Origin: Variovorax sp. S12S4
GTDB taxonomy: Bacteria > Pseudomonadota > Gammaproteobacteria > Burkholderiales > Burkholderiaceae_C
Direction: 5' to 3'
Length of the DNA: 64,000 bases
Assembly: GCF_023195515.1 (NCBI RefSeq)
Contig: NZ_JALPKR020000002.1
Span: forward strand, 868,001 to 932,000
This document shows, piece after piece, positions 21,569-31,149 of the stretch (positions are counted from its first letter, which is position 1; every line of letters begins with the position of its first letter). The position numbers and the translations under genes were made by a program. Below the pieces are notes generated by a model. It searched no databases and was not told the DNA's origin. It saw only the letters and a list, made by a program, of their open reading frames with translations.

Positions 21569-22606
21569 TCAGGCCCGCGCCACCTTCACGGTGGCCGCGC
21601 CAGCGGCTTCTTCGATGGCATAGCGCACCGGCAGAAAGCGCTCGATCACCGCGCAATTGGTTCGCGTGTGCTCCGTTACCTCGCTGCAGGTGAAGGCGGC
21701 CGCACCGCCGCTTTGCCATGTCGCCAGGCCCAGCAGCAGCGCCAACTGGTCGGCCAAGTGCGGCCCCACGGCCGCCTGGCTCTTCTGGAAGTCGCGCAGC
21801 TCCCTCACCAGCGCATGCGCCACCTGCTCTGCGCTGAGCGTCTTTTCGCCGAAGGCCGTGAAAACCTCGGTCGCGTGCTCGTAGGCCAGCGTGGCGAGCA
21901 GCGCGTTGCCCGGCCCTTCGTTCTGCCGCGCCGTGCCGACGCGCAGTTGCTCGCCCGACCAGCCCATCGCCTTGCCCAGCGTTTCCAGCTCGCGCGCGGC
22001 AATGTGCCGTGCGAGCCCCGGCGCCAGGCACTCGGCGTGGCCCGACAGCAATGCGCCGCGCTCGACCAGGTCGAAGGGCTTCAGCCCATCGGCCGACGGA
22101 ACGATGGTCACGTCGACCTCGCCGCCGCCGGCGGGATAAAAGCCGCAGCGGCGCAGCACCAGTTGCAGGTCCGCGCCCAGGCGGCGCACCAGCGGCGCAA
22201 AGGCGCGCTCCAGAAAGTGGAACGGCGGCGCCATTGGGTTGTGCGTGCCGCCGCGCAGCTGCACTCGGCTCGGCGTGCCGGCCAGCAGCAGCGGCGGCAG
22301 TACCGTTTGAAGCACCAGCATGCAGCTGCCCGCGCTCGCAATCGTGAAGCTGTAGTCGCCCGCACGCACCGGACCGGGCACGAAGCGCAGCGATTGCGAT
22401 CCGAGCTCGGCCCCTTCGACCTGCGCGCCGCTGATCTCGGCCGCCGCGTTGACGCACGCGAGATGCTGCCGCATCAGGCCCGGCTTGGCGCGGCCCGCGC
22501 GAATCTTCTCGATGGAGACGGGCTGGCCCGTTGCCACCGACAGCGCGAGGCTGGTGCGCAGGATCTGGCCTCCGCCCTCGCCTTGAGAGCCGTCGAGTTC
22601 AATCAT
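21569..22606 (-). CDS. rtcA: RNA 3'-terminal phosphate cyclase RtcA
   Basis: A 345-residue RtcA, which converts RNA 3'-phosphate to a 2',3'-cyclic phosphate via an adenylylated His. The family start IELDGSQGEGGGQILRTSLA is exact, followed by RAGRAKPGLMRQHLACVNAA, FYPAGGGEVDV, and the C-terminal SEVTEHTRTN containing the catalytic His. The ATG overlaps the stop of the RlaP gene (ATGA at 22606). It is the last gene of the minus-strand RNA-repair operon. In E. coli rtcA directly follows rtcB; here five genes separate them. Confidence 0.95.
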   Translation of the reverse strand: MIELDGSQGEGGGQILRTSLALSVATGQPVSIEKIRAGRAKPGLMRQHLACVNAAAEISGAQVEGAELGSQSLRFVPGPVRAGDYSFTIASAGSCMLVLQTVLPPLLLAGTPSRVQLRGGTHNPMAPPFHFLERAFAPLVRRLGADLQLVLRRCGFYPAGGGEVDVTIVPSADGLKPFDLVERGALLSGHAECLAPGLARHIAARELETLGKAMGWSGEQLRVGTARQNEGPGNALLATLAYEHATEVFTAFGEKTLSAEQVAHALVRELRDFQKSQAAVGPHLADQLALLLGLATWQSGGAAAFTCSEVTEHTRTNCAVIERFLPVRYAIEEAAGAATVKVARA

Positions 22607-23460
22607 GCGCGGCCTCCTTTCTTCACTGCGGACGCGGCCGCGTCGAAGCGCAGCACGGTCTCGCAAAGAAACGCATCGAGCCCGGTGCCATCGGCCTGCG
22701 GCAGCGGCGTGACAGGTTCGGCTGCGTTGGCCGCCAGTTCGCTTTCGATAAACGCGTGAATGCCCGGCCAGCGCGGGCTGGTCGCCGCTTCGCCGGCGCG
22801 CATCTTCACTTCGAGCAGCGCGTTGATTTCTTCGATCAGCGCGGTGTCGCGCACGGGGTCGAGCGTTTTCTGCGCCAGGTCGGCAAAGCGCATCGGCGGC
22901 ACCCCGGGCTGCGTGCGGATCCACCGCGCGGCCAGCAGCGGGCGCAGCACATAGAGGTATTTCTTGTAGCGCACCTCGTCGGCCTGCAGGTGCTCGCGGA
23001 AGTTCTTCTTTGCCATCGACGCGTAGTGATGCCAGCCGCGCGCGTTGGAGAACACCGCTTCGGAGAGCGCACGAAAACGCGGCATGGCCGCTTCGTCTTC
23101 GCGGTACACGACCGGCGAGCGCAGCCATTCGAGCAGCGTGGGGTTCGACTCGCGCATGAGGCCCAGCGCCTTGCGCAGGTCCCAGCCGTTCACGTCGAGG
23201 TCGCCACTGATCGGCAGCTCGATCACGTCACGCCGCGGGGTGACCGTGAGGTACCACGGCAGACGGTTCACGTAGATGAAGCGCACGTCGTAGTCGCTGT
23301 CGGGCGAGGCAAAGCCCCAGCCGCGGCTGCCGGATTCGCAGGCGAACAGCACCGTGACGTCGTGGCGCGTTTCGATGTCGCGCAGGGCATCCATGATCTG
23401 CACGCGCATGGCGGGATCGATGGGGTGCGCCGAGCGCAGGAATTCTTCTTTGTTGCTCAT
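22603..23460 (-). CDS. RlaP-type pol-beta nucleotidyltransferase
   Basis: A 285-residue nucleotidyltransferase of the RNA-ligase-associated pol-beta group. The catalytic signature is FACESGSRGWGFASPDSDYD near residues 40-58, a GS motif with the paired Asp residues, followed by VRFIYV. Then come KNFREHLQ and KKYLYVLRPLLAARWI. Families of this type sit beside RNA ligases and are proposed to add nucleotides to damaged RNA ends. It overlaps rtcA by 4 bp and follows the RNase Z gene by 33 bp, consistent with a repair role. Substrate unproven. Confidence 0.8.
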   Translation of the reverse strand: MSNKEEFLRSAHPIDPAMRVQIMDALRDIETRHDVTVLFACESGSRGWGFASPDSDYDVRFIYVNRLPWYLTVTPRRDVIELPISGDLDVNGWDLRKALGLMRESNPTLLEWLRSPVVYREDEAAMPRFRALSEAVFSNARGWHHYASMAKKNFREHLQADEVRYKKYLYVLRPLLAARWIRTQPGVPPMRFADLAQKTLDPVRDTALIEEINALLEVKMRAGEAATSPRWPGIHAFIESELAANAAEPVTPLPQADGTGLDAFLCETVLRFDAAASAVKKGGRA

Positions 23461-23493: not shown

Positions 23494-24462
23494 TCATTCA
23501 TCCGATCGGGCACGGGTGACAGCCACGTTGCCGGCGCTGTCGAGTTCAAAAACGTCCAGGTCGTTGGCCAGGAATGCGTTGCCGCGGTAGTGGGCCTGGG
23601 TCTCCACCATCAACGCGGCCACGCCCTCTTCGTTCTGATGGCGCGGACTCACGTGCGTCAGCACCAGGTTGGGCACTTTGGCGGACTGCGCAAACTCCGC
23701 CAGCAGGCGCGCGGAGCTGTGCATGGGGCCGGGCCCGACCTTGTCGAGCGCTTCCTGCGTGTAGGTGGCCTCGTGCACCAGCAGTTGCGCACCTTCGCAG
23801 GCCGCGCGCAGCAGCGCGGGCTCGGCGTTGTCGCCTCCCAGCACAGCGCTTGCCGTGTCGATTTGCGTCTCGGCAAAGTCGGCACTGCGCAGCACCGCGC
23901 CGTTGAAAGGTACGTCTTCGCCGTTCTGCAGCGCGCGCCATGCGGGCCCGGGCGGCAGGCCGGCCGCACGCAAGGCGTCGGCCTTGAGCCGCACGCGCCG
24001 GGTTTGCACCTGCACGCGGTAGGCGTGGCTGGGCACCCGGTGCCGCAGCCCATGGCGCTCGATGCGCAGGCCCGGGGCTTCGTAGACCAGCGCCTCGGTT
24101 TCCAGATCGACATGCTCCACTTCGTACGGCAGATGCAGGTCCGTCAACCGGTGCGTGGTTTCGAACCACTGCCACACCGGCAGCGGCGCGACCAGCTTCA
24201 GCGGCTTGGTGCGCTTGCCCATGCCCGCGCTGGCGAGCAGGCCCGGCAAGCCGTAGCAATGGTCGCCGTGCACGTGCGTGATGCAGACCGCCGCCATGTC
24301 ATGCAAGGACAGCCGCGTCTGCTGCAGCCGGTGCTGCGTGCCTTCGCCGCAATCGACAAGGAACCAGTCGGTGCCGAGCACGGTCTGCACCGCAAGGCCG
24401 GAGACGTTGCGCTGGCGCGTGGGGACTCCTGAGGACGTGCCCAGGAAGGTGAGCTTCAACAT
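23494..24462 (-). CDS. RNase Z-like metallo-beta-lactamase nuclease
   Basis: A 322-residue beta-lactamase-fold RNase. The N-terminus MLKLTFLGTSSGVPTRQRN and the metal motif CITHVHGDHCYGLPGLL are diagnostic of RNase Z/ElaC, as are VHEATYTQEA and LVLTHVSPRH further on. RNase Z cleaves tRNA precursors 3' of the discriminator base. The start at 24462 overlaps the stop of the zinc-ribbon gene. Presence inside an rtc operon, together with tRNA-like RNAs upstream, suggests a role in trimming damaged or mimic tRNAs here. Confidence 0.9.
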   Translation of the reverse strand: MLKLTFLGTSSGVPTRQRNVSGLAVQTVLGTDWFLVDCGEGTQHRLQQTRLSLHDMAAVCITHVHGDHCYGLPGLLASAGMGKRTKPLKLVAPLPVWQWFETTHRLTDLHLPYEVEHVDLETEALVYEAPGLRIERHGLRHRVPSHAYRVQVQTRRVRLKADALRAAGLPPGPAWRALQNGEDVPFNGAVLRSADFAETQIDTASAVLGGDNAEPALLRAACEGAQLLVHEATYTQEALDKVGPGPMHSSARLLAEFAQSAKVPNLVLTHVSPRHQNEEGVAALMVETQAHYRGNAFLANDLDVFELDSAGNVAVTRARSDE

Positions 24463-25160
24463 TCCCCGCTCTCCTCCTCGGCCCGGCGCGCCAGTGCCTT
24501 CGTTGCGGCATCCGCTGCTTCGCGTTCCCACGTTCCGTAGCTGCTCGTGCGGTTCGCTGCAAATGCCTGCAGCCGCTCGACCTGCTCGGGCCCGCCCCAC
24601 TTACCCATGACTTCGATGGCGACTACGCGGAGGCTCCGCCACTTGCTTTGCAGGGCAGCTTCCACTTGCGCGAGCGCGTCGGCGCCAGGCTTTTGCACCG
24701 CAAGCGCGCGCAACCGGGCCACCTCCTCACCCAGCAGGTTGGCGCCTTCGTTCCGAAGCGCCGCATCACGCAAGGCGCGACGGGCCTGCCGGCATGCACG
24801 GCATCGCACGGCGTGGCTGTACACCGAGCCTTGCGCAACCTCATGCCACCACTTCTGCTGCTTTGCCGTCCACACCTCCTGGGCGCGGCAATCGCGGCAG
24901 GTGAAAGCCTGGTCGAGGTAGAAATCCGGCACCTCGCCGAAGGTGGTGTTGTAGTGCGCAAGCCGCGACTTGTCGGCCATGACCATGCCAGGCACGAGTC
25001 CGCCCGCCGAGAGCTGACGGGCGTCCTGCGTGCGCAGCTGCGCCTTCAGCGCGGCGGCGCGTTCGAGGCGGTGCGCCTTGATTTCGGCGCGGCGTTGCTT
25101 GTTGCTTTTCACGGTCAGAACCTCGCGCCGGAGATATCCCTCATCGACGCCGTATTGCAC
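24456..25160 (-). CDS. Zinc-ribbon protein of the RNA-repair operon
   Basis: A 234-residue protein. Near residues 88-122 it has CRDC and CRAC pairs flanking WTAKQQKWWHEVAQGSVYSH, the pattern of a probable zinc-binding ribbon domain that often binds nucleic acid. The N-terminus is basic (KSNKQRRAEIKAHRLERAA). The C-terminal 80 residues look like an all-helical HEAT-like pair (KWRSLRVVAIEVMGKWGG). The ATG at 25160 overlaps the 3' end of the preceding gene by 20 bp; a GTG at 25112 is an alternative start. I do not recognise a characterised homolog. Tight overlaps on both sides tie it to RNA repair. Confidence 0.7.
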   Translation of the reverse strand: MQYGVDEGYLRREVLTVKSNKQRRAEIKAHRLERAAALKAQLRTQDARQLSAGGLVPGMVMADKSRLAHYNTTFGEVPDFYLDQAFTCRDCRAQEVWTAKQQKWWHEVAQGSVYSHAVRCRACRQARRALRDAALRNEGANLLGEEVARLRALAVQKPGADALAQVEAALQSKWRSLRVVAIEVMGKWGGPEQVERLQAFAANRTSSYGTWEREAADAATKALARRAEEESGEC

Positions 25161-25731
25161 TCATCCTCTCCAAAGCTTCATGCGCAATCAATTGCTCATT
25201 GGCCATGACCGCTGCTTGTGCCAATGAACTCAGCGCTATCGAATCGACGAACTCCAAGATGCTCTCCACCTGCTCAGGCTCCTGACGCGCACAAATCTCC
25301 TCGTCGTTCCACTGCTGAAGAAGCTGCGCGATTCCTGTGTGCGTCAGATCGCATAGCTCGGAATAGTGCGCCCGATGGAAAGCCGACAGGATGTCAGGAG
25401 GGAGCTCGTCCGCGACTTCCAATGCAGCTACGATTTCTTTCTGAGGCGGCGGACTCCCGCCTGCAAGAAATGCCGCGACCGCCTCGTCCCCGGCAGCTCG
25501 GCTCAGCCACATCCCGCGGATGTAGGCATCCCAAGCACAACGCAAAAGTGCAGTTGCGGGCGCAATGAGACCTTCCTGATAAAGGCGCGAAACAGCGGCT
25601 TGGTGTTGCCACACTACGTAGTAGCAGGTAGCGGCGAACTCACTTCGGCCGTCTCTAACAACGCCGATGCCATCGAATTTCGATGCAATCCAATCCGCAA
25701 TGTCACGGCTCTTTTTCAGTCGTTCATTCAT
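25141..25731 (-). CDS. DUF6988-like hypothetical protein, atypical base composition
   Basis: A 196-residue, mainly helical protein (MNERLKKSRDIADWIASKFD start; central LLRCAWDAYIRGMWLSRAAG; HYSELCDLTHTG). The LRxxWDAYIRGMWL segment resembles DUF6988 proteins of unknown function. Sampled lines are about 53% G+C, clearly below its neighbours, so it may be a later insertion into the operon between rtcB and the zinc-ribbon gene. It starts 2 bp after the rtcB stop and overlaps the next gene. The conserved D-Y-R and H-x-x-Y-S-x-L pattern hints at a buried polar site, but no activity can be assigned. Confidence 0.6.
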   Translation of the reverse strand: MNERLKKSRDIADWIASKFDGIGVVRDGRSEFAATCYYVVWQHQAAVSRLYQEGLIAPATALLRCAWDAYIRGMWLSRAAGDEAVAAFLAGGSPPPQKEIVAALEVADELPPDILSAFHRAHYSELCDLTHTGIAQLLQQWNDEEICARQEPEQVESILEFVDSIALSSLAQAAVMANEQLIAHEALERMSAIRRR

Positions 25732-25733
25732 TT

Positions 25734-26957
<1,224 letters not shown>

Positions 26958-27000
26958 ATTCTTTTCTCTCCGACTGTCTATCTATCTATTCTTACGACTG

Positions 27001-27060
27001 ATGGTGGACACGGTGGGATTCGAACCCACATCAATACGGCGACCATGGTGTTTGAGTCCG
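27001..27060 (-). ncRNA. tRNA 3'-half-like sequence before rtcB
   Basis: On the minus strand a perfect T-arm GTGGG-TTCGAAT-CCCAC (27013-27029) is followed by CGTGTCCACCA, which looks like an acceptor 3' strand ending in CCA. Upstream lies CTCAAAC, like a Leu-CAA anticodon loop. No complementary acceptor 5' strand (GGACACG) is found in the preceding 200 bases, so this is not a complete tRNA gene. It may be a tRNA 3'-half relic, a decoy, or part of the rtcB leader. The T-arm is certain; the rest is uncertain. Confidence 0.45.
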
Positions 27061-27241
27061 ATGGCCCAGTCGACGATTGGAAACGCGCGCCAGTGGCAGA
27101 CCCGTCATCTGAGCCAGCACCTGCATCCTCAACCTTGCTCGTCAACCGGCTGGCCCGCCGCATCCGGTGCTACCCGGACTGCCGGCAATAACAACATTTT
27201 TGGCAGTGGCGCTCCCTTCTGTGCCTGCGTGCCCGATATAC
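27061..27241 (-). other. Unassigned structured spacer between RNA array and rtcB
   Basis: No credible coding frame. Several short hairpins can be drawn on the minus strand, for instance TCCGG-GTAGCA-CCGGA and the distant pair AGCACC/GGTGCT. A D-arm-like GGCTCAG occurs near 27105-27113. It may complete the tRNA-like element at 27001-27060 or be an rtcB leader, but I cannot build a consistent fold by eye. Confidence 0.3.
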
Positions 27242-27371
27242 AAAAAAGAGGTGACGAGGAGCGACGGGTTGTGTACTGAGCTATCTGCCGAAACAGACCG
27301 GGGATTGAACCCGGGACCTTCACGGCCAAGACCATGACGCTCTATCCTGTAAACCCGCCTGCATTCACCTC
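27242..27371 (-). ncRNA. Y-RNA-like unit C: tRNA mimic opened in the D-loop
   Basis: Minus-strand reading. Terminal stem GAGGTGA/TCACCTC, internal loop ATGCA against GCTCCTCG, second stem GGCGGGTT/AACCCGTC, then T6. Inside is a circularly permuted tRNA: D-loop end GGATA, D-stem GAGC, anticodon-like stem TCATG/CGTGA, variable AGGTC, T-arm CCGGG-TTCAATC-CCCGG (27298-27314), acceptor-like stem TCTGT-TTCG-GCAGA (27284-27297) capped by TTCG, then TA and D-stem GCTC-AG. Every tRNA junction length is kept. The Y-type stem therefore replaces the middle of the D-loop. TROVE proteins bind such stems, and bacterial Y RNAs are known to mimic tRNAs. Confidence 0.75.
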
Positions 27372-27376
27372 AAAAC

Positions 27377-27506
27377 AAAAAAAGCAGCGACAAAAATCGA
27401 CGAAACGTTTTCGTGCTCTAACCACTGAGCTACGGTCTTTCGACCGGCGGGATTCGAACCCGCGACCCCGAGCGTTGAAGGCTGTAGTTCCGCCAGCATT
27501 CGCTGC
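27377..27506 (-). ncRNA. Y-RNA-like unit B: tRNA mimic opened in the anticodon loop
   Basis: Minus-strand reading. Terminal stem GCAGCGA/TCGCTGC, internal loop ATGCT against GATTTTTG, second stem GGCGGAAC/GTTTCGTC (two G-U pairs), then T7. The module has variable GGGTC, T-arm GCGGG-TTCGAAT-CCCGC (27447-27463), acceptor-like stem CGGTC-GAAA-GACCG (27433-27446) stacked without a gap, TA, and the textbook D-arm GCTC-AGTGGTTA-GAGC (27415-27430). A short CGA/TCG pair marks the anticodon stem, so the molecule is a tRNA cut in the anticodon loop and closed at the acceptor end by a GNRA tetraloop. Confidence 0.78.
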
Positions 27507-27609
27507 AAAAAACAGTGCGACGAGGATGGCAAGACGTAGACCACGCCGGAGAACCGGCGCCGGGAGTCGAACCCTGGTCGCACCAATGTAGTCCTGCCTG
27601 CATTCGCAC
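27507..27609 (-). ncRNA. Y-RNA-like unit A: reduced T-arm module
   Basis: Minus-strand reading. Terminal stem GTGCGA/TCGCAC, internal loop ATGCA against ATCCTCG, second stem GGCAGGAC/GTCTTGCC, then TG and T6. The module is reduced: T-loop hairpin GGG-TTCGACT-CCC (27562-27574) and capped stem CGCCGG-TTCT-CCGGCG (27544-27559), enclosed by GACCA/TGGTC. No D-arm or anticodon arm is left. Its T-run directly abuts the 5' end of unit B, so the units are packed head to tail. Confidence 0.7.
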
Positions 27610-27627
27610 AAAACCGCTCTCATCCCC

Positions 27628-27695
27628 GTTCGGCGACAAACAATCGATGCGAGGAAGAACATGGTTGGATGTACTCGCATCTGCATTCGCCGAAC
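27628..27695 (-). ncRNA. Y-RNA-like unit 0: minimal, no tRNA module
   Basis: Minus-strand reading. Terminal stem GTTCGGCGA/TCGCCGAAC (9 bp), internal loop ATGCA against GATTGTTTG, second stem GATGCGAG/CTCGCATC (8 bp), and an apical loop of about 20 nt starting TACA. It has the same skeleton as units A, B and C (YGA-ATGCN, 8-bp stem, TACA) but without a T-arm. It is 72 bp downstream of the TROVE stop. A TROVE-bound small Y RNA is the best guess. Confidence 0.68.
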
Positions 27696-27765
27696 GACGA
27701 CGTTCAATTCATTTCGAGTCGGGCACCACAGGCCGAAGCCTGGGGCGTCCTCTCTTTTTCTTCTC

Positions 27766-29319
27766 TCAGATCGAAGTCTCTTCGATCACACCCACCCAGT
27801 GCTCGGCGCCCAGGCCGCCCGCGGCATACACCGCCAGCAGCTTGAACACTTCGTCGCTGAAGCCGCCGATGTTCAGCACATCGTCGCGCTCCTGCGCCTG
27901 GGTGGTCGCATAGGGCTGGATGTCGATGCACACCAGCCGCGCCTTCGGATTGCGCTGCTTGAACGCCTCCCACTCCTGCATGGTCGCGGTTCCACGGCCA
28001 CGTGCAGCATCGGCCCACGATTCGTTGTCCGACACCAGCACCACCAGATCGGCTTGCGCCTTCTCCTTGTTCAGCAGCGCCAGCGGCGCGCTGCAAGAAG
28101 TTCCGCCGCCGCCCACCGCCGCCAGCTTGGCCGCGTTGGTCATCACCGAATCGCGTGGATTCAGCTTCAGCGGCACCACCTTCGTTTCGAAGGGCAGCAC
28201 ACGCGCATCCGCATTGCGGCGCAGCACGGCGGCAGCCACCAGCGCGGCCACGTCGATGCAGCGCACCGCCGAAGTCGCCGAACCGCGGTGGCCCGTCACC
28301 GGCGAGCTCATCGAGCCCGACACGTCGGGGCACACCACCACACGGCCCTCGAACACCGGCACGTTGGCCAGCGCGAGTTCCATCGCGTCCTGCAGCGCTT
28401 CCTTCACTGCAACCGGCACCTCGGCGCCTGTTGCGGTGTAGGCCGCCATCAGCTGGTACGGCAGCACGCGTGCCTTGGCCACGGCCTGCGGGTCACGCAG
28501 CTTGGCAGCCACCGCTTCCGCGAGGCCGGGCAGCTCGAACACGCCATGGCGGGCGAAGGTGTTCAGGTTCTGACGCACCATCTGCCACGATCCGCGCTGC
28601 GCGATCTGCGCCCAGGCCTGGGCGTCCAGCTCCAGCGCGGTCAGCATCTGGAATGGCACGTCGGGCACCGGTTGTGTCCGGTCGCGCTTGAAGCGTTCGA
28701 AAGCCTGCGTCACCGGAGGCAGCGCCTCCAGCGCATACGGACGATCGATCAGCCATGCGAACCATGCGGCGCGCCAGGCTTCGGCGGGCTTGGGGTGAAC
28801 CATCTTCACCACGTCGGCCAGCGACGGCGTGTTGCCCACGGCGGCATTGAGCAGCTGCGCCTCGGTCGCATCGAGCAGCCATTGCTGCACAAGCTTCTTC
28901 GGACGCGTGCCGAGCGACTTGCGGCCCACCGCGCCGCTGCGCAGCATCTGCACGAAGTTGCGCAGCATCTTGCCGTTGTCGACCACGCGACCGAACACCT
29001 TGGCGAGCAGCGCCACGTCGCGCACGGCGAGCGTGGCGGCCAACAGCGCGGGCATGTCCTTCATGTGGCCGGCAGAGCGTGCATACACGGCCGTCTTGGC
29101 GACGAACACCGGATCGACTTCACGGGCCAGCGCCAGCACGGTGTCGAGCTGGTCCTGCGCCTGTGCATAGAAGGTGCTGTTCAGGCAGCCGGTGGCCGCG
29201 AGCTGCGCCAGCTGGTGCTTGGGCGACAGCACGTAGGCCGCGCCGCCCGCTTCGTTGAGCGTATTGGCCAAAGGCAGCAGTGCGCCGCGCAGGCTCTGGA
29301 AGAGTTGAAGGTTGACCAT
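27766..29319 (-). CDS. rsr: TROVE-domain Ro60 ortholog (Rsr)
   Basis: A 517-residue Ro/Rsr protein. The N-terminal two thirds are the helical-repeat TROVE ring (for example HMKDMPALLAATLAVRDVAL and KMLRNFVQMLRSGAVGRKSL) that binds misfolded RNA ends and Y RNAs. The C-terminal vWA domain has the MIDAS triad DVSGSMS (near residue 355), GGGGTSCSAP and SDNES. A ribosome site AAGGAGAAGTCAC precedes the ATG. In Salmonella the rsr-yrlBA-rtcBA operon is activated by RtcR. Here the same order, a perfect sigma-54 promoter and divergent rtcR are kept. Confidence 0.93.
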   Translation of the reverse strand: MVNLQLFQSLRGALLPLANTLNEAGGAAYVLSPKHQLAQLAATGCLNSTFYAQAQDQLDTVLALAREVDPVFVAKTAVYARSAGHMKDMPALLAATLAVRDVALLAKVFGRVVDNGKMLRNFVQMLRSGAVGRKSLGTRPKKLVQQWLLDATEAQLLNAAVGNTPSLADVVKMVHPKPAEAWRAAWFAWLIDRPYALEALPPVTQAFERFKRDRTQPVPDVPFQMLTALELDAQAWAQIAQRGSWQMVRQNLNTFARHGVFELPGLAEAVAAKLRDPQAVAKARVLPYQLMAAYTATGAEVPVAVKEALQDAMELALANVPVFEGRVVVCPDVSGSMSSPVTGHRGSATSAVRCIDVAALVAAAVLRRNADARVLPFETKVVPLKLNPRDSVMTNAAKLAAVGGGGTSCSAPLALLNKEKAQADLVVLVSDNESWADAARGRGTATMQEWEAFKQRNPKARLVCIDIQPYATTQAQERDDVLNIGGFSDEVFKLLAVYAAGGLGAEHWVGVIEETSI

Positions 29320-29379: not shown

Positions 29380-29395
29380 TGCAACGGGTGTGCCA
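29380..29395 (-). promoter_or_regulatory. Sigma-54 promoter of the RNA-repair operon
   Basis: Read on the minus strand TGGCACACCCGTTGCA matches the sigma-54 consensus TGGCACRNNNNTTGCW at every defined position. It lies 60 bp upstream of the TROVE start. The 140 bp between it and the divergent rtcR start are AT-rich and contain several inverted repeats, where RtcR would bind. Confidence 0.9.
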
Positions 29396-29535: not shown

Positions 29536-31149
29536 ATGAAGAAATCCACCGTCGTCATCGGTTTCCTCGGCACCCAGCTCGACGCCGGCCAAGGCACAGG
29601 CCGCTGGGAAAAATGGCGCCCGACCATCTCTCTTGCGCAGCACGAGGACATGGTCATCTCGCGCATGGAGCTGCTCTACACGCTCAAGCACAAGGCGCTG
29701 GCCGAGGTGGTCAAGGCCGACATCGCCACCGTCTCGCCGGAGACCACCGTCAACCTGGTGCCGCTCGACCTGGCGGACCCGTGGGATTTCGGCGAGGTGT
29801 ACGCGCGCCTCTACGACTGGGCGCGCACCTACACCTTCGACACCGAACGCGAGCAGTACTGGACGCACATCACCACCGGCACGCACGTGGCGCAGATCTG
29901 CATGTTCCTGCTGGCCGAATCGCGGGTGATTCCGGGCGTGCTGGCGCAGACCTCGCCGCCCAAGCGGCAGCGCGCGGGCAACCCGGGCGAAGTAGCGCTG
30001 ATCGACCTCGACCTGTCGCGCTACGACGCGATTGCGCGGCGCTTCGATGCCGAGCAGCGCGATGCGGTGGCCTTCCTGAAGAGCGGCATCGCCACGCGCA
30101 ATGCGCGCTTCAATGCGCTCATCGACGAGATCGAACGCGTGGCGGTGCGATCGCGCGCGCCGATCTTGCTGGTGGGGCCGACCGGTGCGGGCAAGTCCTT
30201 CCTGGCGCGGCGCATGTTCGAACTGAAGCAGGCGCGGCACCAGATGACGGGGCCGTTCGTGGAAGTGAACTGCGCCACGCTGCGGGGCGACGGCGCCGCG
30301 TCCACATTGTTCGGCCACAAGAAGGGCGCGTTCACCGGCGCGGCGGGCGAGCGCGCGGGCCTGCTGCGCACTGCGCACCAGGGCGCGCTTTTTCTGGACG
30401 AGATCGGCGAGCTCGGCCTCGACGAACAGGCGATGCTGCTCAAGGCCATCGAAGAGAAGCGTTTCTTCCCGGTGGGCGCCGACAAGGAAGTGGAGAGCGA
30501 CTTCCAGCTCATTGCCGGTACCAACCGCGACTTGCGCAGCGACGTGGCGGCCGGTCGCTTTCGCGAAGACCTGTTCGCGCGCATCAATCTCTGGACCTAT
30601 GACCTGCCGGGCCTGGCAAAGCGGCCGGAAGACATCGAGCCCAACCTCGACCACCTGCTGGCCATTCACGCGGCCGAAAACAACCGCGTGGTGCGCTTCA
30701 ACGCCGAGGCCCGCGCCGCCTACCTGCGGTTTGCGCAAAGCGCCGAGGCGCTGTGGTGCGGCAACTTTCGCGACCTGTCGGCCAGCGTGACGCGGCTCGC
30801 CACGCTGGCGGACGGCGGGCGCATTCCGGTCGCGCTGGTCGAAGCCGAGATTGCACGGCTTCGTTGGCTATGGAACCGCGAGAGCCCGAAAACCGATGGC
30901 AGTGGCGCCGAGGACGTGGACCTCGACGCATTGCTGGGCGATGAACGCGCGGCGGCGCTCGACCTGTTCGACCGGCTGCAATTGGAGGCGGTGGTGCGCG
31001 TGTGCCGTGAATCGCGCAGCCTGTCGGACGCGGGGCGGCAGCTTTTCCAGGCGTCGCGCGCGCAGCGCAGCGTGGTGAACGATGCCGACCGGCTCCGAAA
31101 GTACCTTGCGAAGCATGGGCTCGAGTGGAGCCGCATTGCCGCGGGCTGA
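29536..31149 (+). CDS. rtcR: RtcR, sigma-54 activator with CARF sensor
   Basis: A 537-residue bacterial enhancer-binding protein. The N-terminal 180 residues (KKSTVVIGFLGTQLDAGQG start; YWTHITTGTHVAQICMFLL) are the RtcR CARF-like domain, reported to sense tRNA fragments or cyclic-phosphate-ended RNA. The AAA+ domain has Walker A GPTGAGKS, the sigma-54 loop KKGAFTGA, and Walker B ALFLDEIGEL. A C-terminal Fis-like HTH follows (RSLSDAGRQLFQASRAQR). It is divergent from the TROVE gene and would drive the perfect sigma-54 site there. Confidence 0.95.
   Translation: MKKSTVVIGFLGTQLDAGQGTGRWEKWRPTISLAQHEDMVISRMELLYTLKHKALAEVVKADIATVSPETTVNLVPLDLADPWDFGEVYARLYDWARTYTFDTEREQYWTHITTGTHVAQICMFLLAESRVIPGVLAQTSPPKRQRAGNPGEVALIDLDLSRYDAIARRFDAEQRDAVAFLKSGIATRNARFNALIDEIERVAVRSRAPILLVGPTGAGKSFLARRMFELKQARHQMTGPFVEVNCATLRGDGAASTLFGHKKGAFTGAAGERAGLLRTAHQGALFLDEIGELGLDEQAMLLKAIEEKRFFPVGADKEVESDFQLIAGTNRDLRSDVAAGRFREDLFARINLWTYDLPGLAKRPEDIEPNLDHLLAIHAAENNRVVRFNAEARAAYLRFAQSAEALWCGNFRDLSASVTRLATLADGGRIPVALVEAEIARLRWLWNRESPKTDGSGAEDVDLDALLGDERAAALDLFDRLQLEAVVRVCRESRSLSDAGRQLFQASRAQRSVVNDADRLRKYLAKHGLEWSRIAAG

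Follow-up and report, generated by a model that had tools for sequence, protein, structure and literature searches.

Four Y RNA-like units with unlike modules and an additional tRNA-like RNA in an RNA repair operon of Variovorax

Introduction

Which RNAs does a bacterial RNA repair operon produce next to the Ro60 ortholog Rsr, and what distinguishes four neighboring units that are built on one skeleton? Y RNAs reportedly lie near Ro60 in more than 250 species, and at least one Y RNA per species is said to carry a tRNA-like module.

According to PMC7790460, the Salmonella rsr-yrlBA-rtcBA operon is induced by tRNA damage via RtcR, and activation of RtcR by tRNA fragments has been reported. PMC8394870 describes RYPER, in which Rsr is bound by the stem of the Y RNA and PNPase by its tRNA-like domain, lists YrlA as substrate of DusA and TruB, and refers to the structure of Salmonella YrlA (PDB 6CU1; family Rfam RF02553). 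After circular permutation, this structure can be superposed on tRNA (PMC11472068). In Anabaena, an inducible tRNA operon is co-regulated with rtcB (PMC10272220).

A preliminary description of the Variovorax DNA analyzed here had proposed Y RNA-like units with diversified modules in an Rsr/RNA repair operon. Folds and alignments support this proposal and reveal four unlike designs.

Results

The units reside in an RNA repair operon with a candidate sigma-54 promoter

The window, that is, the entire 64 kb stretch of DNA under study, is a piece of a 5.97 Mb genome whose closest named relatives, judged by Rsr, are Variovorax. The RNA repair operon on its minus strand has the order rsr, array, RNA E, rtcB, DUF6988, zf_Tbcl, RNase Z-like, rlaP and rtcA. 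The genes and the promoter are:

29536..31149, plus strand: rtcR, sigma-54 activator, divergent from the operon (Pfam RtcR 4.7e-82, Sigma54_activat 1.1e-49)
29380..29395, minus strand: candidate sigma-54 promoter TGGCACACCCGTTGCA, 60 nt 5′ of rsr (exact match)
27766..29319, minus strand: rsr, Ro60 ortholog with TROVE and Ro60-type vWA domains, 517 aa (Pfam vWA_Ro60 4e-19, TROVE 5e-7)
25734..26957, minus strand: rtcB, RNA ligase (Pfam RtcB 4e-128)
25150-25734, minus strand: DUF6988 gene, adjoining rtcB on its 3′ side
23494..24432, minus strand: RNase Z-like protein of the same operon (NCBIfam RNase_Z 224 bits, curated cut-off of 293 not reached)
22603..23460, minus strand: RlaP, RNA-repair nucleotidyltransferase (Pfam RlaP 1.8e-91)
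21569..22594, minus strand: rtcA, RNA 3′-phosphate cyclase (Pfam RTC 3.1e-79)

The Rsr protein scored 75.8 bits against the NCBIfam Rsr model, far under its cut-off of 900. For comparison we used the best 80 of 112 rsr relatives, which had been retrieved with exact peptide patterns taken from this Rsr. In all 74 relatives in which rtcB was found, it is located downstream on the same strand. Genes for the RNase Z-like protein, RlaP and RtcA were detected in 11, 37 and 59 of the 80 relatives, respectively; these numbers undercount the later operon genes because the relatives' stretches cover at most 5 kb on either side of rsr. A tblastn search (E 1e-8) of the stretches around the 80 named loci gave no relative of DUF6988, and this gene may be a recent insertion.

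The element TGGCACACCCGTTGCA is the sole mismatch-free one among three sigma-54 matches in the window. With one mismatch allowed, the three sites compare with 3.66 expected, which is chance level, so that the argument for the promoter is carried by its position. The pattern TGGCAY-N5-YTGCW was found within 400 nt of rsr in 47 of the 79 relatives with enough upstream DNA, as against none in 160,000 bases of background. A scan of positions 26950-27800 gave no sigma-70-like promoter, in agreement with the earlier view that the spacings leave no room for separate promoters. From the sigma-54 site and the gene order we infer that the array is expressed from one transcript.

In several relatives, the 5 kb preceding rsr contain rows of tRNA genes with the same orientation as rsr, with 17 tRNAs in L027, 10 in L029, 5 in L032, 8 in L033, 20 in L050 (plus one additional call on the opposite strand) and 23 in L070. 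It looks as if a spare tRNA set accompanied the repair operon.

Four units share one skeleton

Direct reading of the minus strand confirmed the four units between rsr and rtcB and their spacings of 18, 0 and 5 nt. The terminal stems are perfect in all four units, and each of them repeats the common skeleton, with its GAATGC loop, TACA and a second stem that is 8 pairs long or longer. The terminal stem reads GTTCGGCGA/TCGCCGAAC in unit A (27695-27687 with 27636-27628), GTGCGA/TCGCAC in unit B (27609-27604 with 27520-27515), GCAGCGA/TCGCTGC in unit C (27506-27500 with 27390-27384) and GAGGTGA/TCACCTC in unit D (27371-27365 with 27254-27248). Terminal tracts of six to seven T had been ascribed to units A, B and C. 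In fact, they belong to B (T6, 27512-27507), C (T7, 27383-27377) and D (T6, 27247-27242), whereas A has only T4.

A hand-made descriptor of the common skeleton detected 266 units in the 80 loci and the window (81 loci). As controls, 240,174 bases of shuffled sequence gave 2 matches and the coding sequences of rsr (124,740 bases) gave 12, so that a small number of the 266 may be false. When the Rfam YrlA model was applied, unit C passed the cut-off (72.4 bits, cut-off 69), B (39.3 bits) and D (23.3 bits) remained under it and A was unmatched. The model encodes a C-type module, and the standing of C as a putative Y RNA rests on this match. All four units have the Ro-binding lower stem, the GAATGC internal loop and the second stem, and the gene of a Ro60 ortholog, rsr at 27766-29319, adjoins them.

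The upper halves follow four designs

The predicted designs of the units are:

27626..27697, minus strand: unit A, terminal stem of 11 pairs, second stem of 8 pairs and small loop, without tRNA-like module (fold)
27507..27609, minus strand: unit B, GACC/GGTC closing helix, T arm and 7-pair acceptor-like hairpin (fold, 23-row alignment A7)
27377..27506, minus strand: unit C, YrlA design, tRNA mimic opened in the anticodon arm (Rfam RF02553, fold)
27242..27371, minus strand: unit D, full cloverleaf whose opening lies in the D loop, 5′ of G18G19 (fold, 31-row alignment A3)

Unit A had no Rfam match. Unit B possesses neither a D arm nor an anticodon arm, and unit C combines a T arm, a 5-pair acceptor with GAAA cap and a D arm. 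The outermost module helix of unit D is the D stem (GAGC/GCTC), followed by a hairpin with a 4-nt loop at the anticodon position, the variable region, a T arm and a UUCG-capped acceptor; the GG after TACA is the equivalent of G18G19. Among the units, tRNA would thereby occur in two or more circular permutations.

Unit types in the relatives were assigned by scores of R2, a covariance model trained on 31 D units that undercounts other unit types; descriptor-based typing marks many D units with a TCCGANY T loop as lacking a T loop. R2 produced 288 matches, 281 of which reach 24 bits, a cut chosen after the scores were known that removes 7 matches; all 281 lie on the rsr strand within 1.6 kb of rsr. 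Unit D of the window scored 119.9 bits, being itself a training row, and unit A 34.5 bits. The D type occurs in 38 of 81 loci. Seven of these 38 (L008, L019, L020, L021, L036, L045 and L067) were outside the training set and scored 85.6-116.8 bits, as compared to at most 61.8 bits for any non-D unit. The hairpin loop at the anticodon position comprises 3-6 nt in all 37 parsed D units (one unit, L019, was left unparsed) and 4 nt in 31 of them. With a loop of this size, the D hairpin should not decode.

Many relatives' D units display a class II long variable arm and Leu-type D-arm motifs, and the D unit of L064 is class I by reading. In many Variovorax D units, that of the window not included, the T loop reads TCCGANY instead of TTCGANY; the C in place of U55 would rule out pseudouridine 55 in these units. 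A further Y RNA design precedes the bare unit A in L031, L033, L035, L036, L048, L053 and other Burkholderiales. These first units are approximately 100-113 nt long and have a branched top without T loop on a terminal stem of 8-14 pairs (counted up to 14).

As far as could be checked, the cloverleaf opened in the D loop is a new design of Y RNA. A survey of the open-licence literature by title and start of abstract found no description of such an RNA, which is weak evidence of novelty.

The modules of B, C and D have T arms and resemble tRNAs

In alignments with doubled tRNAs, units B, C and D reached best scores of 45, 72 and 47, respectively. The corresponding control maxima were 30, 41 and 31 with 200 shuffled tRNAs and 33, 38 and 31 with reverse complements. 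Unit A, with a score of 18 against controls of 18 and 20, was not above background. All three units with higher scores contain T arms.

The D modules of relatives were aligned to 114 doubled tRNAs, leaving out ARAGORN calls inside Y arrays. Six of these 13 modules (L029, L033, L072, L085, L064 and L023) were clearly above the controls, and the other seven (L048, L057, L041, L014, L044, L043 and L025) were not, so that the tRNA likeness of these seven rests on structure and motifs. The D-arm motif TGGYGRA occurs among 118 tRNAs in Leu genes only (6 of 10). None of the 118 tRNAs contains the D units' exact GGTAGACGC, and five Leu genes contain the nearly identical GGCAGACGC. The likeness of D to tRNA-Leu in the D-arm motif, the near-identity to GGCAGACGC and the long variable arm is best taken as a resemblance of sequence and not as shown descent. 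Descent of class II D modules from a tRNA-Leu of the same lineages gained no support from these alignments, in which true tRNA-Leu genes did not stand out.

ARAGORN calls a D-type Y RNA at L025:7082 a tRNA-Leu(cag) and reports two tRNA-Cys(aca) at Cardiobacterium Y RNAs (L068:4326 and 4489). Such Y RNA units may be misannotated as tRNAs.

Homologs of units A, B and D accumulate compensatory changes

A lack of compensatory changes in related loci had been named as an observation that would speak against the array. The opposite was found in homologs of A, B and D, where such changes are located in both Y stems, in the B and D modules and in the A stems.

For unit D, 97.2% of cells are paired in 31 rows and 19 of 28 pairs changed on both sides. 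The covariation score of 0.471 compares with 0.204 ± 0.011 in shuffled and at most 0.094 in slid alignments. The weakest helix is the D stem with 86.1% paired, in which the fourth pair is A-G in class II units and non-standard in 16 of 29 rows. One pair of this outer stem (columns 32-142) covaries, with C-G in 17 rows and A-U in 13. Unit B (23 rows, 95.4% of cells paired, two-sided change in 11 of 28 pairs) scored 0.208 as compared to 0.111 ± 0.009 in shuffles; its closing helix is 84.8% and its acceptor-like hairpin 89.5% paired, the outermost acceptor pair being broken in 11 of 22 rows. Unit A (alignment A8, 23 rows, 97.9% of cells paired, 8 of 19 pairs changed on both sides) scored 0.351 versus 0.124 ± 0.013 in shuffles. 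In the number of its pair types it does not exceed the shuffles, 441 of 500 of which reach that number. The slid controls for A, B and D, with values of at most 0.097 against scores of 0.208-0.471, take account of the relatedness of the rows, which the shuffle controls ignore.

The strong compensatory change indicates that A, B and D, as judged from their homologs, are Rsr-type Y RNAs rather than pseudogenes. By its pattern of change in the aligned sequences, the array is real, conserved and functional.

Arrays of four units are common among relatives

According to R2, the 80 loci contain one unit in 8 cases, two in 9, three in 22, four in 23, five in 15 and six in 3. The idea that four units exceed the usual set did not survive this count, as 41 of the 80 relatives have at least four units and four is the commonest number. 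Arrays of 3-6 units also occur in two Neisseria and two Cardiobacterium loci (5′ of rsr), in Labrys and in several Verrucomicrobia, and an acidobacterial MAG has two units.

The locus with the most similar Rsr (L006, 97% identical) harbors A and C only, counted as two units by the descriptor and one by R2, and L007 has A, B, C and, by reading, a damaged D. Single units are thus dispensable. One extra unit is present in L008 and L012. In a search of 321 genomes of the class, R2 matched four at E 1e-4, including the source genome itself; the other three, at 43-57 bits, carry Y RNAs that are not clearly D. This search scored 10 candidates per genome, and absences in it are weak evidence.

The number of units is ordinary for the group, and the design is new as far as checked.

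A further tRNA-like RNA precedes rtcB

Between the array and rtcB, outside the region covered by the preliminary description, lies a further element:

27002..27234, minus strand: RNA E, conserved tRNA-like RNA of approximately 232 nt (alignments A2, A5 and A6)

The predicted cloverleaf of RNA E consists of a 7-pair acceptor with G3:U70 and A73-CCA, a D arm, a T arm and, at the anticodon position, a 5-pair stem with an 18-nt loop. The variable region is composed of a small hairpin and a giant arm of approximately 130 nt. RNAalifold calculated 68 pairs from 14 sequences, 26 of them with compensatory change. With distant copies included, 41 of the 68 pairs are compensatory in 22 distinct rows of an alignment that was fitted to the model. 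The covariation score was 0.314, compared to 0.131 ± 0.006 in shuffled and at most 0.093 in slid alignments.

No Rfam family reached its cut-off for RNA E, in the window or in the distant copies L133-L136. The tRNA model RF00005 scored 18.4 bits (cut-off 29) for 27005-27059, and ARAGORN found neither tRNA nor tmRNA there with introns allowed. Matches of the Rfam tmRNA model (RF00023) sit under the cut-off in units B and C, not in E. Three known kinds were considered as identities of E, namely tmRNA, a tRNA with intron and a group I intron; none of the Rfam families attained its cut-off at this place. No common reading frame was noticed by eye in the copies.

G3:U70 is the identity element of alanyl-tRNA synthetase. 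It is present in 18 of the 20 rows of A6 with readable acceptor and also in L157, and absent from L149 and L151; three ordinary tRNA rows and the truncated L136 were set aside in this count. Since the window and named rsr loci contribute 14 of the 18 rows, the count overstates the independent support. The pairs neighboring G3:U70 covary. The conserved pair suggests, as a prediction from sequence, charging of RNA E with alanine, and the RNase Z-like protein of the operon would suit maturation of its 3′ end.

Nearly full-length RNA E with at least 90% identity is found in 7 of 41 genomes of the genus, the source genome included, and two more match over 35 nt only. Among the 80 named loci, 14 contain RNA E with at least 190 bits, and 12 of these 14 are in the training alignment. 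L015 holds a probable remnant (34 bits) and L021 a copy without 3′ end. In the 14 loci, which were chosen by rsr, E is located 8-52 nt before the rtcB match in seven cases and farther away in seven; in L058 it precedes rsr. In L012, L013, L014 and L016, 583-848 nt separate E from the rtcB match, and by reading another ATG frame begins between the two in L016. Genes may insert at this place.

Wider searches covered 321, 399 and 398 partly overlapping genomes at the level of class, order and phylum and scored 6 (R1) or 5 (R3) candidates per genome, absences being weak evidence. Clear copies were obtained from G284 (110.9 bits), G280 (106.6), G073 (104.4), G510 (122.2), G455 (98.3), G637 (89) and G862 (139.6). 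An eighth copy, in G072, lies at a contig edge with its 5′ end lost or changed (40.9 bits with R1, 85 with R3). The eight genomes carry eight different family labels. All remaining matches stayed at or below 36.1 bits; those of 73-94 nt in length (20 of 26 low matches in the class search, all 11 in the order and phylum searches) are probably ordinary tRNAs. An exact pattern of the E core had no match in viral contigs.

The gene rtcB is present in the stretch of six of the eight genomes, directly after E in G280 and G073, after E in G455, and before E in G284, G510 and G862. In G637, three Y RNAs follow E, and neither rtcB nor rsr was found in 16 kb; neither was found in the 6 kb of G072. Rsr occurs in the stretch of G280 only. 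In G284 (L133, 940-4317), rtcB is followed by a row of 13 tRNAs in which E lies between tRNA-Leu(taa) and tRNA-Leu(gag), and 3, 13 and 4 tRNAs are found in the stretches of G510, G455 and G862, respectively. The position beside rtcB, mostly without Rsr in the stretch, ties RNA E to RNA repair loci and not to Rsr as such.

RNA E is more novel than the array. No description of it was found in the open-licence literature surveyed by title and start of abstract, which is weak evidence of novelty.

Discussion

The sequence, the covariation of A, B and D, the operon position and the promoter match, together with the predicted folds, make it likely in our view that a sigma-54/RtcR-induced operon would produce Rsr and a set of Rsr adaptor RNAs with differing modules. 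By analogy with Salmonella, tRNA cleavage would lead RtcR to fire the sigma-54 promoter. The transcript would yield Rsr and RNAs sharing one kind of Rsr handle, and the single units may be released by termination at their U-tails, by trimming or by cutting. Homology suggests that every unit binds Rsr via its Ro-binding lower half, and the upper halves would decide what reaches the Rsr ring. Unit A, without a module, may merely occupy or gate Rsr. Unit B would offer a minihelix of T arm and acceptor, unit C an L-shaped tRNA tethered by its anticodon end, and unit D a full cloverleaf tethered by its D-loop elbow, so that the two tether points would show different faces of the tRNA shape. The short-loop caps at acceptor and anticodon positions imply that C and D would look tRNA-like to tRNA-binding proteins and be neither charged nor decoding. 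Judging from Deinococcus, the exoribonuclease PNPase is a likely partner, and so are tRNA-gripping enzymes or nucleases.

Alternatively, the tRNA modules might act as decoys, which occupy an anticodon-loop stress nuclease or the CARF sensor of RtcR while Rsr only stabilizes them. YrlA has been proposed as a possible competitive inhibitor of a nuclease (Hughes et al. 2020, PMC7790460), and unit D retains a hairpin at the anticodon position. However, this hairpin has a loop of 3-6 nt and not the 7-nt anticodon loop, and A and B have no anticodon arm at all, which leaves the decoy function rather unlikely. We give slightly less credence still to an action in cis, where a chain of stems and U-tracts would grade the amount of transcript reaching rtcB and Rsr on the nascent RNA would serve as autoregulator. 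The terminal stems of B, C and D are indeed followed by T6-T7, and wherever rtcB was found among the relatives (74 of 74), it lies downstream on the same strand. Attenuation does not need distinct conserved tRNA-like modules, though, and long inserts separate the two sides of the terminal stems. A terminator scan flagged none of the three tails, but its 3-8 nt loops could hardly have caught them. Decayed tRNA genes or an integration scar are strongly disfavored and can be practically dismissed: the T-arm and D-arm sequences are plainly tRNA-like and ARAGORN takes a relative's D unit (L025) for tRNA-Leu, but the recurring position beside rsr in 81 loci and the covariation argue against decay.

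The adaptor reading can be extended to the operon as a whole, and we put this forward tentatively as a possibility with less than even chances. The repair operon might constitute a kit of tRNA mimics, in which Y RNAs in two permutations face different Rsr partners and an Rsr-independent RNA E represents a new class of tRNA-like RNA. RNA E could be cut by tRNA-end enzymes, charged with alanine via G3:U70 and serve in the damage response as tmRNA-like rescue RNA, as sensor or as RtcB substrate.

One kind of Ro-binding stem with four different tops provides a natural panel for the role of bacterial Ro60 and Y RNAs beside RtcB. The cloverleaf opened in the D loop broadens what counts as a Y RNA, given that unit D stays under the cut-off of the Rfam model and a relative's unit of this design is mistaken for tRNA-Leu by ARAGORN. 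Confirmation of RNA E would establish a new RNA family, linked to RNA repair instead of Ro60.

Among known RNAs, tmRNA has a large insert and a closing tRNA-like end that includes G3:U70, a T arm and A73-CCA. RNA E is alike in all these respects and differs from tmRNA by a D arm with a stem and by the stem at the anticodon position. YrlA (RF02553) and unit C agree in the Ro-binding stem, the T arm, the capped acceptor and the D arm. In contrast to YrlA, unit D has its opening in the D loop and retains a hairpin at the anticodon position, and many relatives' D units have a long variable arm; B lacks a D arm, and A has no module. With the Salmonella operon, as presented in PMC7790460, the locus has rtcR, rsr, Y RNAs, rtcB, rtcA and control by RtcR in common, but there are two Y RNAs in Salmonella and four here. 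Beside this Salmonella-type set, the Variovorax locus holds RNA E and the genes for the RNase Z-like protein, RlaP, zf_Tbcl and DUF6988. With the Deinococcus radiodurans Y RNA and RYPER (PMC8394870 and PMC4726728), the units described here have in common the combination of a predicted Rsr tether and an effector module.
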